Shown: positions 21,092 to 64,000 of the stretch, piece after piece
Layout: every line of letters starts with the position of its first letter
Position numbering within the stretch: position 1 is the first letter of the stretch
Position numbers and translations under genes: made by a program
Source: Hyphomicrobium sp. CS1BSMeth3
GTDB lineage: Bacteria; Pseudomonadota; Alphaproteobacteria; Rhizobiales; Hyphomicrobiaceae
Direction of reading: 5' to 3'
Assembly (NCBI RefSeq): GCF_900117415.1
Contig: NZ_FPEI01000005.1
Span: 1,240,001 to 1,304,000, forward strand
DNA length: 64,000 nt
Notes under the pieces: generated by a model
Told to the model about the DNA's origin: nothing
The model's database searches: none
What the model saw: only the letters and a program-made list of their open reading frames with translations

Positions 21092-21844
21092 CTATCGCGA
21101 GAGCGCGCGATCGACCCAGGAGAAGAGACTTTCAATCGCGGTCGTCGGGGCCGCGATTTTTTGTTTCTGCGGGGTCTTGTCGGTGGCGACCGTGCGCGCG
21201 TCGCGCCGTTCACGCGGCGGCAGGTACTTGTTCACCGGCTTGTAGCCGAAGGCGCCGAGCAGATCGAAGCCGCCGCGCTCGGCGACGAGCTTCGAGACGT
21301 CGCTATCGGGATCACCGAGGTCGCCGAAGTGACGTGCGCCCGTCGGGCAGGCGCGTACACAGGCCGGAACCCGATCCTCGGGCGCGAGATGCTCGTTGTA
21401 AATGCGGTCGACGCACAGCGTGCACTTCTTCATCACGCCATGGCTCGGGTCGTACTCGCGTGCTCCATAGGCGCAGGCCCACGAGCAAAGCTTGCACCCG
21501 ATGCAAAGATCGGGATCGACAAGCACGATGCCGTCCTCGGCGCGCTTGAAAGACGCGCCGGTGGGACAGACGGTCACGCAGTCCGGCGTTTCGCAGTGCA
21601 GACAGGAGCGCGGGAAGTGGACCGTGCGGCTGTCCGCACCGTCGCCGACTTCATAGCTGTGAATGCGGTTGAGCCAGGCACCATCGGGATCGGCGCCATA
21701 AGGATCGGTGTCCGAAAGCGGCGCAGAGTAGCCGCCCGTGTTCCATTCCTTGCAGCTCGTCGCGCAGCCGTGACAGCCGACGCACGTGTCGAGGTCGATG
21801 ACGAGGCCGAGTTTGCGCTCCGTATGGGTGGGAAGGCAGGTCAT
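21092..21844 (-). CDS. soeB: Iron-sulfur subunit of sulfite dehydrogenase (four [4Fe-4S] clusters)
   Basis: A 250-residue ferredoxin-like electron-transfer subunit of the DmsB/PhsB/SoeB type. Four cysteine groups are visible: DTCVGCHGCATSC, SCLHCETPDCVTVCP, DLCIGCKLCSWAC and KKCTLCVDR with PACVRACPTG. Together they supply ligands for four [4Fe-4S] clusters. It relays electrons between the molybdenum subunit and the membrane anchor. No signal peptide is present, which fits a complex on the cytoplasmic side. Its start overlaps the soeA stop (ATGA at 21841-21844), so the two subunits are translationally coupled. Confidence 0.9.
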   Translation of the reverse strand: MTCLPTHTERKLGLVIDLDTCVGCHGCATSCKEWNTGGYSAPLSDTDPYGADPDGAWLNRIHSYEVGDGADSRTVHFPRSCLHCETPDCVTVCPTGASFKRAEDGIVLVDPDLCIGCKLCSWACAYGAREYDPSHGVMKKCTLCVDRIYNEHLAPEDRVPACVRACPTGARHFGDLGDPDSDVSKLVAERGGFDLLGAFGYKPVNKYLPPRERRDARTVATDKTPQKQKIAAPTTAIESLFSWVDRALSR

Positions 21845-24753
21845 CGACGTGCCCTCTTGAATTCGGCGCCATAGGCGATGACATCGGGATGGCCGCGGCC
21901 GATCGGATCATCGAACGGCTCGAAGCGCGGCTCGCTCTGCTCGATTGCCTCGGGCGAGGCTTTCTCGATGTGGACGCGCAGGTCGTACCACGCAGCCTGT
22001 CCCGTGATGGGATCCGAGTTCGAGTAGCGGTAGCCGCCGCCCTTGGCGGGCAACAGCTCGGAGATGAGATGGTTCAGCAGGAAGCCGCGCGTTGCTTCCG
22101 GCGCGTCGTTCGAGAGGCCCCAGGCGCCTTTGCGCTTGCCGATCGCATTCCACGTCCAGGCCGTCTGATCGTTCACGCCGTCCATGAGGCGAACCTGACA
22201 GCGCACGCGGCCGAGATAGCTGCTGATCCAGACCCAATCGTCATCGGCAATGCCGAGCTCCTTGCCGCGCGCGCGGCTCATGTAGAGCCGGTTCTGGCCG
22301 GTGATCTGGCGCAACCACGCATTCTGCGAGCCCCATGAGTGGTACATGTGCATGGGGCGCTGCGTGATCGCGTGCATGGGGAACTTGTCGGTATCGACCA
22401 TCGTGCCTTCGAAGGGCTGATACCAGAAGGGCAGCGGGTCGAAGTATTTCGCGATGCGCTCGCGATGGCTCTCGGGCGGCTGCACGGGGCCATGGCCTTC
22501 GGCCGCGAGACGGAACGCCTGCAGCGGCTCGCAGTAGAGCTGGAAGGTCATCTTCGCATCGGCGGCGCGGAAGCCGACCGAGGCCGCCCAGTCCAGATAC
22601 TCCTTGTTGGCGTGCTTGAAGTAGCGCTGGCTCGGCGGAAGATGATGCGCGTGGAAACCGCCGTTGGCGATGTAGCGATTGAGCTGGTCGGGATTGGGCG
22701 CGCCCTTGCCGAAGCTGTCGCCATTGCCGCGCCAGCCGGCGAGCGGGCCGATACCCGGCGCACGCTCGTGGTTCACGAGATAGTCGGCATAGCCGCCGGG
22801 GAACTGCGGTGAGCCATCCTCTTTCACGAGGCCCGGCAGCTTGAGGCGCGCGCCGAGGTCGAGCAGTACAGACTGGAAGCCGCGGACATCGCGGTCCGGC
22901 TCGATGACCGGATGGCGGATCGCGTCGCACGCCGCATCGGGCTCGGAGATCGGCCGGTCGAGCATGGAGATGCAATCCCACCGCTCGAGATAGGTCGTGT
23001 CGGGCAGGATGAGATCTGCGTAGGGCACCATCTCGGAGTAGTAGGCATCCGAGTAGATGATGCGCGGAATCTTGTACTCGCCGGTCTCGGGATTCTTGTC
23101 CGTCAGATACTTGAGCGTATCGCGGATGTTCATCGACGAGTTCCAGCTCATGTTCGCCATGTACATGAACAGGGTGTCGATGGGGTACGGATCGCCGAGC
23201 GCCGCGTTCGTGATGACCATGTGCATGAGGCCATGGGCGGCGAGCGGCGCATCCCAGCTATAGGCTTTGTCGATGCGCTGCGGTGTGTGAGCGGCGTCGA
23301 TCAGCAGGTCGGCTGGGCTCGTCGGGAAGCCGAGATGCGGACCGGGAAGCGGCTCGCCGGCTTTGACCTGGCCGGGCTTGCCGGTCGGCTTCAGGCGAGG
23401 TGCGATCTCTTTCGGATAGGGCGGCTTGTAGCGGAAGCCGCCGGGGCAATCGATCGAGCCGAGCAGGATCTGCAGGATGTGAATGAGCCGGCAGGTCTGG
23501 AAGCCGTTCGAGTGGGCCGAGATGCCGCGCATGGCGTGCATGGCGACGGGACGGCCGACCATTTTCTCGTGACGGCGCCCGTGGATGTCCGTCCAGGGAA
23601 CATCGAGCGTGATGGTCTGCTCGAAGGCGACCTTCGCCATTTCGTCGGCGTAGCGGCGGATCGTGGCGGCCGGCACGCCGCACTCTTTCTCCGCGCGCTC
23701 GGGTGAGTATTCCTCGCCGAGATAGCGCTCGGCCATCTTCTGGAAGACCGGGATGGCCGTGCGGCCATCGGGCAGTTTCACGGGCCCCGAGAGCTGCGGG
23801 ACGACATCGGGTCCTTCGGCGGGAACGAGCGCGCCCGAGCGCTTGTCGAAGGCGAGCGCATTGCCCTTCTCGTCGCGCACGAACATGCCATGATCGGCAG
23901 CGCCCGGCGCCTCAATGACGAGCCAGGGCGCATTCGTGTAGCGCACGAGATAGTCGATATCGATGCGCTGCGTCCTGAGAAGCTCGTGAATGAGCGCGCC
24001 GACGAAAGCGCCGTCCGTGCCGGGCCGGATGCCGACCCACTCATCGGCAACGGCGTTGTAGCCCGTGCGCACGGGATTGACGGAGACGATCTTCGCTCCG
24101 TTCGCCTTGAGCTTGCCGAGGCCGATCTTGATCGGGTTCGAGCTGTGGTCCTCGGCGACGCCGAAGAGCATGAAGAATTTCGCGTGGTCCCAGTCCGGCT
24201 CGCCGAACTCCCAGAACGAGCCGCCGAACGTGTAGAGGCCGGCGGCTGCCATGTTCACCGAGCAGAAGCCGCCGTGGGCTGCGTAGTTCGGCGTGCCGTA
24301 CTTGATGGCCCACCAGCCGGTCAGGGACTGCGACTGGTCGCGGCCCGTGAAGAAGGCGAGCTTCTTCGGGTCCTCGGCGCGGACCTTGCCGAGCCAGTCG
24401 GTGGCCGTCTGCAGCGCTTCTTCCCAGGAGATCTCCTTGAACTCGCCCGAGCCGCGCGGACCGACGCGCTTGAGCGGCGCCTTGAGGCGCGCCGGCGAGT
24501 AGTGCTGCATGATGCCGGCGGAGCCCTTGCCGCACAGCACGCCCTTGTTCACCGGGTGATCGCGGTTGCCGTCGATGTAACGGACCTTGCCGTCCTTGAG
24601 ATAGACGTTGATCCCGCACCGGCAGGCGCACATGTAGCAGGTGGTCTTTTCGATCCTGTCAGCCGGGTTTTCGCTGAGGACGACGCCGTGTGCATCCGGC
24701 TCGGATGTCCGGGCGCTCGAGGTGGAAGTCTTGGCTGTCGCGCGATCCTGCAC
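21841..24753 (-). CDS. soeA: Molybdopterin subunit of sulfite dehydrogenase (quinone), SoeA-like
   Basis: A 970-residue DMSO-reductase-family molybdoenzyme. The N-terminal [4Fe-4S] motif is C-x2-C-x3-C-x27-C (C39, C42, C46, C74). C164 in HGGFCSVNM is a candidate molybdenum ligand. ITGQNRLYMSRARGKELG belongs to the C-terminal molybdopterin-binding domain. There is no twin-arginine signal, so the subunit stays in the cytoplasm, as known for SoeABC of Allochromatium vinosum and related marine alphaproteobacterial enzymes. Reaction by family: sulfite to sulfate with electrons to quinone. A thiosulfate, polysulfide or DMSO reductase-type role is the alternative, but size, gene order and lack of export favour SoeA. 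It starts with GTG, three bases from a palindromic repeat element. Confidence 0.82.
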   Translation of the reverse strand: MQDRATAKTSTSSARTSEPDAHGVVLSENPADRIEKTTCYMCACRCGINVYLKDGKVRYIDGNRDHPVNKGVLCGKGSAGIMQHYSPARLKAPLKRVGPRGSGEFKEISWEEALQTATDWLGKVRAEDPKKLAFFTGRDQSQSLTGWWAIKYGTPNYAAHGGFCSVNMAAAGLYTFGGSFWEFGEPDWDHAKFFMLFGVAEDHSSNPIKIGLGKLKANGAKIVSVNPVRTGYNAVADEWVGIRPGTDGAFVGALIHELLRTQRIDIDYLVRYTNAPWLVIEAPGAADHGMFVRDEKGNALAFDKRSGALVPAEGPDVVPQLSGPVKLPDGRTAIPVFQKMAERYLGEEYSPERAEKECGVPAATIRRYADEMAKVAFEQTITLDVPWTDIHGRRHEKMVGRPVAMHAMRGISAHSNGFQTCRLIHILQILLGSIDCPGGFRYKPPYPKEIAPRLKPTGKPGQVKAGEPLPGPHLGFPTSPADLLIDAAHTPQRIDKAYSWDAPLAAHGLMHMVITNAALGDPYPIDTLFMYMANMSWNSSMNIRDTLKYLTDKNPETGEYKIPRIIYSDAYYSEMVPYADLILPDTTYLERWDCISMLDRPISEPDAACDAIRHPVIEPDRDVRGFQSVLLDLGARLKLPGLVKEDGSPQFPGGYADYLVNHERAPGIGPLAGWRGNGDSFGKGAPNPDQLNRYIANGGFHAHHLPPSQRYFKHANKEYLDWAASVGFRAADAKMTFQLYCEPLQAFRLAAEGHGPVQPPESHRERIAKYFDPLPFWYQPFEGTMVDTDKFPMHAITQRPMHMYHSWGSQNAWLRQITGQNRLYMSRARGKELGIADDDWVWISSYLGRVRCQVRLMDGVNDQTAWTWNAIGKRKGAWGLSNDAPEATRGFLLNHLISELLPAKGGGYRYSNSDPITGQAAWYDLRVHIEKASPEAIEQSEPRFEPFDDPIGRGHPDVIAYGAEFKRARR

Positions 24754-24756
24754 GGT

Positions 24757-24923
24757 CTAATGTCCCGATTCCGAAGTTCGCCCCGCCTCGATGCTGGTGT
24801 CCCGAGCGAACTTCGGAATCAAAAGGGACACTAGAATCACGGTCTTGCTAGTGTGATTCAGATCGAGAAATTCGCTCCATACCGAGCCGCTTGACGCGGC
24901 GAATTTCTCGATCATCACACTAG
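24757..24923 (+). repeat. Paired-palindrome repeat element, copy A
   Basis: Two adjacent imperfect palindromes, 24757-24834 and 24848-24923, separated by 13 bases. Each begins CTAGTGT (first copy mutated to CTAATGT) and ends ACACTAG. The first has a 10-bp outer stem, a small bulge and a 15-bp inner stem built on gattccgaagttcgc and its complement, with a 24-base loop. The second has a 10-bp outer stem, a 3-base bulge and about 15 bp of inner stem built on gatcgagaaattcgc. The same arrangement, in the same orientation and nearly identical, recurs at 63684-63849. No open reading frame lies inside. It is best described as a REP/BIME- or MITE-like dispersed element; I do not recognise a named family. 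Confidence 0.92.
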
Positions 24924-55857: not shown

Positions 55858-56158
55858 AGTGGGCGTCACAGGTGGTCTCGCGAGGGATGGGCAGTGCAGG
55901 GATCGTTGTGGCTTTTTGATCAATGATCAGTATCGGGATATGTGGCCTGTATGACGCACAAGGCTTTTCAACATGCGTCTTTCCGCATATTCTCGATGTG
56001 TTGACATTGCCGAATCAGCAGTGTGTTGGCATGGTCAAATCGTAGCTGCGATGACGATCTATCGTCGCTATTGCCCACTTCGGGCGTTTCCTCCCTAGAC
56101 TTGGGCCGTTCTTTGGTGAGCGGCCCCTTTGTTCTCTAAGCGCCACAGCGCTTAGACT
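55858..56158. other. Gene-free stretch with hairpins
   Basis: No gene seen. A perfect 9-bp hairpin TCTAAGCGC/GCGCTTAGA with loop CACA lies at 56135-56156, directly after the DUF4139 gene's stop; it lacks a T tract but could end or protect that transcript. A second possible stem GGGCCG/CGGCCC lies at about 56103-56126. The remainder is AT-richer than its surroundings and probably holds the hisN promoter. Confidence 0.45.
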
Positions 56159-62824: not shown

Positions 62825-63622
62825 TTATTTTCCCGCGTGTGCGTCGAGGAACGGCAGGACATGCGAATGGAACAGCTCCGGCTCCTCATTGTGCAGCATA
62901 TGCGAGACACCCGGCACGATGACGAGATCCGAGCCAGGAATGGCGTCGTGGATTGCTTGCGAAGCGGCAACGGGCGTTGCGGGATCGATCTCGCCGACGA
63001 TCACGCGCGTCGGCAGGCGGATGGCGCCGAGGCGGTCGGTGACATTGAGGCCGCGGATGGCCTGGCACCAGCCCACATAGCCATCGATGGGCGTCAATTT
63101 GATCATCTGGCTCAGGCGCTCGACCAGGGCGGGGTTCTCCTTGATCGCGCGCGGTGAGACCCACCGCTGGATGGCGCCCTCGACCTGCGTGACCATGCCG
63201 CCGGTCGTGACCGCATGAATGCGCTGGTCCCAGAGTGGCTGCGCCTCGTCGGGGATGCGGCTCGAGGTCGAGACCAGCAGGAGGCAGTTGAAGCGTTCGG
63301 GATAAAGGAGACCGAGATACTGGCCGACCATGCCGCCCATGGAGAGGCCGAGGAAGCTCGCCTTCTGAACGCCACAGGCGGTCATCAGCTCGGCGACGTC
63401 CTTGGCGAGCGTCTCGAAGGCATAGGGGCCGGCCGGGGCGTCGCTCTTGCCGTGGCCGCGGGCATCAAGGCGCAGGACCCGGTAGTTGGGCTCGAGGGCC
63501 GCGGTCAACTCGTCCCAGCACGTGAGGTTCGTGGCGAGCGGATGGTGAAGGACCACGACCGGGCCGTCGGCCGCGCCGGACAGCTCATAGTTGATGTCGA
63601 TGCCGTTGACGGTCGATTTCAT
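62825..63622 (-). CDS. Alpha/beta hydrolase, 3-oxoadipate enol-lactonase-like
   Basis: A 265-residue alpha/beta hydrolase. Nucleophile serine in GLSMGGM, acid in VGEIDPATPV, histidine in GVSHMLHNEEPE; LDARGHGKSDAP is the usual strand-4 motif. It is similar in layout to PcaD (3-oxoadipate enol-lactonase) but has no pca genes around it, so the true substrate is unknown. No signal peptide. It ends 10 bases before the DUF4384 start, so the two may form an operon read leftward. Confidence 0.8.
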   Translation of the reverse strand: MKSTVNGIDINYELSGAADGPVVVLHHPLATNLTCWDELTAALEPNYRVLRLDARGHGKSDAPAGPYAFETLAKDVAELMTACGVQKASFLGLSMGGMVGQYLGLLYPERFNCLLLVSTSSRIPDEAQPLWDQRIHAVTTGGMVTQVEGAIQRWVSPRAIKENPALVERLSQMIKLTPIDGYVGWCQAIRGLNVTDRLGAIRLPTRVIVGEIDPATPVAASQAIHDAIPGSDLVIVPGVSHMLHNEEPELFHSHVLPFLDAHAGK

Positions 63623-63683: not shown

Positions 63684-63849
63684 CTAGTGTCCCGATTCCG
63701 AAGTTCGCCCCACCTCGCTGCTGGCGTCCCGAGCGAACTTCGGCATCAAGAGGGACACTAGAATCATTGTGCTGCTAGTGTGATTCAGATCGAGAAATTC
63801 GCTCCCACTGGGCCGCGAGATACAGCGAATTTCTCGATCATCACACTAG
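63684..63849 (+). repeat. Paired-palindrome repeat element, copy B
   Basis: Second copy of the element at 24757-24923, same orientation. Palindromes at 63684-63761 and 63775-63849, separated by 13 bases. Stems gattccgaagttcgc and gatcgagaaattcgct with their complements are retained; the outer arms CTAGTGT and ACACTAG are perfect in both. Differences from copy A lie mainly in the loops and the spacer. It sits 62 bases before the hydrolase start (leftward) and 78 bases before queA, so the promoters of both divergent genes must lie in or beside it. No coding potential. Confidence 0.92.
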
Positions 63850-63927: not shown

Positions 63928-64000
63928 ATGCGTACGGCTGACTTCGACTTCGATCTGCCCGAGGACCGCATAGCCCTCCATCCGGCCGTGCCGCGCGATG
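63928..64000 (+). CDS. queA: S-adenosylmethionine:tRNA ribosyltransferase-isomerase (3' partial)
   Basis: Only the first 24 codons are inside the window. The sequence MRTADFDFDLPEDRIALHP is the well-conserved QueA N-terminus. QueA adds the cyclopentenediol group of queuosine to tRNA in the cytoplasm. It lies 78 bases downstream of repeat copy B. Confidence 0.9.
   Translation, partial: MRTADFDFDLPEDRIALHPAVPRD

Follow-up and report, generated by a model that had tools for sequence, protein, structure and literature searches.

A CTAG-footed double-hairpin repeat of Hyphomicrobium and other Alphaproteobacteria, probably a mobile intergenic element kin to the CIR repeat

Results

The locus and its two copies

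The window analysed here is the whole 64,000-nucleotide stretch of Hyphomicrobium sp. CS1BSMeth3, whose coordinates are used below; loci are numbered with L and compared genomes with G. A 167-bp element of two adjacent hairpins, P1 and P2 (copy A, Table 1), is separated by 3 bases from a reverse-strand open reading frame (ORF; 21841-24753 in its longest reading) that was named by eye as molybdopterin-oxidoreductase-like. A second copy (copy B, L020) sits between a called reverse-strand ORF (62825-63622) and an ATG at 63928, and both copies were thus found between ORFs, as originally predicted. Folded as single-stranded DNA, copy A reaches -48.5 kcal/mol, whereas 200 shuffles average -20.9 and none is as good (z -9.0); copy B gives z -10.5. 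The element is confirmed as real.

The original prediction described two adjacent stem-loops with CTAGTGT and ACACTAG ends. The stem-loops stand, with the correction that each inner arm is bulged, by AAAA in the first and TCA in the second. The general plan is a CTAG foot, a stem, a P1 loop of about 24 nt and an A-rich bulge of 4 nt, with a loop of about 23 nt and a TCA bulge in P2. The left end does not read as described: copy A has CTAATGT there, its hairpin feet being CTAA, CTAG, CTAG and CTAG in order, and its orthologue in the relative G003 (L072) has CTAG as outer left foot. Copy B was correctly placed 39 kb off in the same orientation (38,927 bp start to start); at 89% identity the two copies are less alike than the near-identity claimed for them.

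Table 1. Features of the element in the window
Feature	Position	Strand	Remarks
Copy A, whole element	24757-24923	+	foot CTAA, hairpin P1, linker, hairpin P2, foot CTAG
Hairpin P1, copy A	24757-24834	+	arms 24757-24781 and 24806-24834; loop 24782-24805
P1 bulge, copy A	24821-24824	+	AAAA, within inner arm
Linker P1/P2, copy A	24835-24847	+	13 nt, AATCACGGTCTTG
Hairpin P2, copy A	24848-24923	+	inner arm 24848-24875; loop about 24876-24898; outer arm 24899-24923
P2 bulge, copy A	24858-24860	+	TCA, within inner arm
Copy B (L020), whole element	63684-63849	+	site in relative G003 without element

Copy number and copy forms in the host

That two copies in 64 kb implied many in the genome was borne out by a whole-genome search, which found about ninety copies and not merely two. 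With up to 3 mismatches, the P1 outer arm occurs at 95 places in the 6.02-Mb host genome and the P2 outer arm at 107, and reversed-pattern controls gave 0 for both. These numbers rest on arm patterns; BLAST scored the best 40 of 154 host candidates. Among the host loci retrieved there are 86 distinct full-length copies, represented by 88 entries since L034 and L109 were read from both strands, and 6 shortened copies that retain both outer ends. Full copies keep the order P1 outer arm (P1o), P1 inner arm (P1i), P2 inner arm (P2i) and P2 outer arm (P2o), and 84 of the 86 measure 155-175 bp, around a unit of about 166 bp. Under the rule used, 12 P1-arm matches have no P2 outer arm within reach, some of these matches lying within full copies whose P2 end is altered. 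There are also partial copies: L113 has only a P1, the arms of L145 and L155 are fused, and L148 (1551-1626) is a lone P2 hairpin with no P1 arm found adjoining. A variant of the P1 outer arm with a CCCTATCCGTAAG core recurs in L143, L144, L146 and L153, and has no letter-for-letter match to the usual inner arm. Identity between copies nowhere exceeds 95.8%, and a very recent move is therefore not apparent.

Constraint on the stems

The alignment of full copies holds 86 rows, two of them doubled, and the main divergence and covariation figures come from the 84 distinct rows. In these, divergence from the consensus is 2.4-4.9% in the stems and 2.4% in bulge 2, and rises to 11.2% in bulge 1 and to 18.9-20.8% in loops and linker. 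The inner arms, which played no part in finding the copies, match the outer arms in conservation, the two not being fully independent because the arms covary. Paired changes occur at many stem positions: pair 7:72 changes from T-A to C-G in 7 of 84 copies, and at pair 94:165 the A-T is replaced by C-G in 16 of the 84 and by G-C in 3. Pairing as good as that observed at covarying pairs was reached by none of 300 shuffles (86 rows, including the two doubled). Watson-Crick pairs fill 3995 of 4190 scored stem cells, and the mismatches are about equally G-T (47) and A-C (57; 84 copies), so that there is no sign of a strand-specific RNA constraint. We attribute this pattern to constraint on the DNA itself or to its self-correction, and the covariation may come partly from self-correction of palindromes.

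Orthologous copies present both paired and one-sided change. L125 differs from its G003 counterpart by a paired stem change, and the bulge missing from L019 is present in its G002 orthologue; L001 against G003 and L132 against G004 have one-sided stem changes only, by eye. At one shared site, host L036 and L081 of G001 have most of loop 2 in common and differ in loop 1 and at paired stem positions, perhaps as a mosaic left by conversion or re-insertion.

Filled and empty sites

Flanks of 94 entries (92 distinct copies) were searched against 2.0 Mb of G003 and smaller loci of other genomes, and 41 locus/genome pairs, from 39 distinct host loci, gave matches for both flanks. Judged by spacing, the relative looks empty in 31 of the 41 pairs, filled in 8 and neither in 2; among the 8 filled, L001 was counted twice and L027 is spurious by its alignment. 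Eleven empty junctions are strict, 4 of which read exactly as a lone CTAG, against 0.35% of shifted windows in the control, and 8 of which match at least three of its four letters, against 37%; in 7 of the 11 the empty site differs from exact CTAG. By eye, CTAG also stands at the empty sites of L128, L023-460 and L026, and at the G003 junction of copy B, whose left flank aligned only to 61 bp away, while variants read TTAG at L046 and L140 and CTAT at L027. Loci with no readable junction include L015, L017, L028, L035, L069, L071, L124, L136 and L139.

Copy A is common to the host and G003. Insertion could be polarised against precise loss for one locus only, L132, which is filled in the host and G004 and for which no element match was listed in G001, G002 or G003, whose flanks are too diverged for the target to be read.

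A lone CTAG at some empty sites raises the question of target duplication, yet the outer feet of the element are often unequal. Eight loci combine unequal outer feet with a readable empty site, and by eye the P1 foot fits that site better in six (L033, L054, L128, L140, L141 and L023-460), with a tie in two (L117 and L126); at least 6 more cases of unequal feet (L015, L035, L069, L118 and L101 twice) lack a readable empty site. These loci point to insertion next to the target with no duplication, but they are few, and self-correction of the hairpins could also explain them.

Gene context and search for a mobilising enzyme

Y1_Tnp (PF01797) has no match in the host, nor in any of the five genomes of the genus, with positive-control matches in 5 of 14 known genomes. 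DDE_3 is likewise absent from the host (positive control matches in only 3 of 14), and PF13340 is represented there by one fragment, with no element arm listed nearby. By eye, no transposase-like family stood beside the copies, the 25 largest neighbour clusters being judged by a single example each. At four closely spaced copy pairs there is no composite transposon, the genes between them being read by eye as host genes (acetyltransferase-, nitrile-hydratase-, short-chain-dehydrogenase-, GlmM- and threonine-dehydratase-like). Plasmid and phage collections contained no match to the element, and no IS could be tied to it. The mobiliser may lie outside the Y1, DDE_3 and PF13340 families, or may have been lost.

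In Rfam the element has no match, either at gathering score when the window was searched or at E<=1 around copy A. Elsewhere in the window, at 56066-56141 (+), lies a match to the suhB/mmgR sRNA (RF00519; 60.9 bits against a gathering score of 41). A literature search, which missed most subscription papers, recognised no paper on this repeat.

Gene context was classified for the 94 entries with a rough gene caller, two copies being read twice, and is not relied on: 36 are tandem on the minus strand, 20 tandem on the plus strand, 12 divergent and 4 convergent, with 20 overlaps and 2 unclassified. In some copies, L005, L011 and L027 for example, a start codon in the P2 loop (element positions 127-128) opens a frame into the downstream ORF of the same caller; these are possible N-terminal extensions or an artefact.

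Spread across Alphaproteobacteria

The element is present in all five genomes of the host genus. Within the order, 21 of 397 genomes and 16 of 142 genera, host included, carry the P1 arm (up to 3 mismatches), and an IUPAC scan of named genomes with this arm retrieved at least 115 stretches. The matches listed include Caulobacter, Phenylobacterium, Bradyrhizobium, Afipia, Nitrobacter, Rhodoplanes, Pseudolabrys and a Parvularculaceae MAG. Sufficient flank was available for 108 listed P1 matches; a far end could be recognised in 83 of these, which span 160-171 bp, and the remaining 25 were dropped. The P1 arm of this named set, including the GANTC in P1o, is fixed by the search pattern.

The linker is 11-14 nt in 80 of the 83, and the P2 arms fall into 24 core sequences. 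Within an element the P2 arms match at 96.4%, and exchanging arms between types lowers this to 64.0%. A common plan of CTAG feet and two hairpins recurs in Caulobacter, Phenylobacterium, Bradyrhizobium, Afipia and Nitrobacter, with P2 arms that are different yet self-complementary.

A feet-only pattern, blind to the arms, found matches in 28 of 385 genomes of the class. Its reversed-pattern control often exceeds the matches, by our reading because GATC is then tested and is commoner than CTAG, and the matches need judging one by one. Under the rule used, the 28 loci (one per genome) have both hairpins in 5 cases, one hairpin in 5 (one of them the host) and none in 18. L375 and L394 of this set have clearly different P1 arms on the same plan.

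Discussion

We consider it likely that this repeat is a non-autonomous mobile DNA element, a CTAG-footed double bulged hairpin copied into intergenic CTAG or near-CTAG sites. An enzyme supplied in trans would copy the unit of about 166 bp into such sites, and would read the hairpins as DNA secondary structure, which would account for stems, bulges and feet that are conserved beside loops that vary freely. More tentatively, the element may insert beside CTAG and duplicate no target; the foot on the P1 side would then be the target, and that on the P2 side the element's own. Effects on the host, through transcription, mRNA ends or GANTC methylation, may occur but would be secondary.

A different mobile origin, which is possible though it would surprise us somewhat, is a MITE of a DDE transposon that duplicates TA inside CTAG or YTAR, either IS630-like or IS5/IS427-like. 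IS630 elements have a preference for CTAG, and IS711 of Brucella is a member of the IS5/IS427 group. The P1o and P2o arms can be viewed as imperfect terminal inverted repeats of 25 bp, alike at 18 of 25 positions, and TA stands at the centre of CTAG. In the extracts of the sources used here, IS711 is described as duplicating TA in YTAR and favouring the Bru-RS palindromes (PMC2266754), and the RUP and Correia MITEs resemble the present element in a size of about 100-200 bp, in being non-autonomous and in having TA at their termini (PMC2229807). Their stem is unlike the hairpins here, however, in that it arises from pairing of the two ends, and RUP has a matching IS630 (PMC2229807). In the host, DDE_3 is missing and PF13340 a single fragment; a duplication predicts feet that are initially equal, whereas empty sites favour the P1 foot; and the inner hairpin arms would have no clear role. 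The MITE likeness proposed originally holds in the broad sense of insertion at CTAG; no parent IS was found in the searches for DDE_3 and PF13340.

The same prediction drew a likeness to REP/BIME elements, which is sound for a dispersed, intergenic, palindromic repeat of mobile type: REP, BIME and REPIN sequences are likewise palindromic, intergenic and high in copy number, with a foot tetranucleotide (PMC3733652, in part). An element of this kind, whether moved by a RAYT (a HUH transposase of the Y1 type) or belonging to another REP class, would suit the two palindromes, the roughly 90 copies, the bulged hairpins and the apparent lack of duplication. We nevertheless find it highly improbable. 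CTAG stands on both sides of both hairpins in place of GTAG or CGTC, the hairpins are about 76 bp long and mostly joined in one P1+P2 unit where a REP palindrome has 20-40 bp, and Y1_Tnp has no match in the five genomes of the genus. Absence of a RAYT tells against GTAG-type REPs alone, because the CGTC-type REPs common in Alphaproteobacteria have, by the same partial account, no association with transposase genes either, a RAYT in the genome being the rule for most GTAG-REP species and not for CGTC REPs (PMC3733652). As a structured RNA or transcript-end element (a terminator, mRNA stabiliser or sRNA) kept by selection at the RNA level, the repeat would explain its strong pairing and covariation, and 3'-UTR roles have been proposed for Br-REP1/2 of Bradyrhizobium (extract of PMC5082802). 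We give this little credence, given the balance of G-T and A-C mismatches, the lack of an Rfam match, a relative without the copy in three quarters of the pairs compared (31/41) and a position between convergent genes for only 4 of 72 classified copies (rough caller, doubles included). Scarcely more probable is a control element for CcrM methylation at GANTC, as speculated for CIR repeats. In its favour are a GANTC at P2 position 99 in 77 of 84 host copies, at least one GANTC in 83 of 84, and, by eye, a GANTC at P1o positions 11-15 in 6 of 7 readable feet-only loci outside the host (L372, L375, L376, L377, L380 and L394, not L392; L379 and L391 left out). Against this, the P1o GANTC is found in only 51 of 84 host copies, the P1 outer stem in the host is least conserved at positions 12, 14 and 11, and the same GANTC in the named set was imposed by the search pattern.

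Returning to a mobile element that inserts at CTAG, a bolder version, which we hold to be rather unlikely, is that the inner foot of each hairpin is a built-in guide that base-pairs with the CTAG target or its variant and so chooses the insertion site, with a non-Y1 enzyme acting on single-stranded hairpins; an inner CTGG would then pair with a CCAG target. All four copies with CCAG as P1 foot (L033, L132, L032 and L119) have CTGG as inner foot. Among them only L033 has an empty site that can be read, and it is CCAG; L132 and L032 had none that was readable. Palindrome self-correction could produce the same pattern. The outer CTAG is kept in 9 of 23 copies with CTCG as inner foot, against the guide. 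In favour of the guide, CTCG/CGAG pairs at the P2 foot do not track overall sequence similarity (516 of 2000 permutations for the body; 86 rows, two doubled), a negative test that proves neither inheritance nor recurrence.

Two palindromes are also held by RIME, one of several families that invite comparison with the preferred mobile element. In the parts of the sources consulted, RIME of rhizobia and Bru-RS of Brucella are, like it, alphaproteobacterial intergenic repeats (PMC2573895, PMC2267715, PMC2266754); Bru-RS, compared by description, is palindromic, favoured by a YTAR-specific IS and, at 103-105 bp, shorter than the present element. Br-REP1 and Br-REP2 are again intergenic palindromes, of Bradyrhizobium and relatives, but their printed consensus lacks CTAG feet and by eye resembles neither P1 nor P2 (PMC5082802, in part).

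The closest described relative is the CIR repeat of Caulobacter, set beside our family by description only. CIR repeats of Caulobacter and Brucella consist of two arms and a linker in about 110 bp, with a conserved GANTC and an unclear mechanism of mobility, as given in a summary of Chen and Shapiro 2003 (PMC2229807). Both have two long inverted-repeat arms joined by a linker, lie between genes in several Alphaproteobacteria and have TA at their termini, and the conserved GANTC of CIR often has a counterpart here in the P1 stem; unlike CIR, with its 110 bp and GANTC at the terminal loop, our elements measure 160-171 bp and hold GANTC in a stem or at a bulge (PMC2229807, same summary). By that description the present family may be a variant of the CIR kind. 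We judge the family real, widespread and mobile, with CTAG its likely target, and probably either kin to the CIR type or an expansion of it.

Many short bacterial repeats lack both a known mover and a comparison of sites with and without the element. Filled and empty orthologous sites, a likely CTAG target, a family across Alphaproteobacteria whose arms have been re-coded with their structure preserved, and the absence of the usual REP transposase narrow the problem to what enzyme recognises DNA hairpins with CTAG feet. Should the family prove to be CIR in a broader sense, an old methylation-linked repeat would be tied to mobility.
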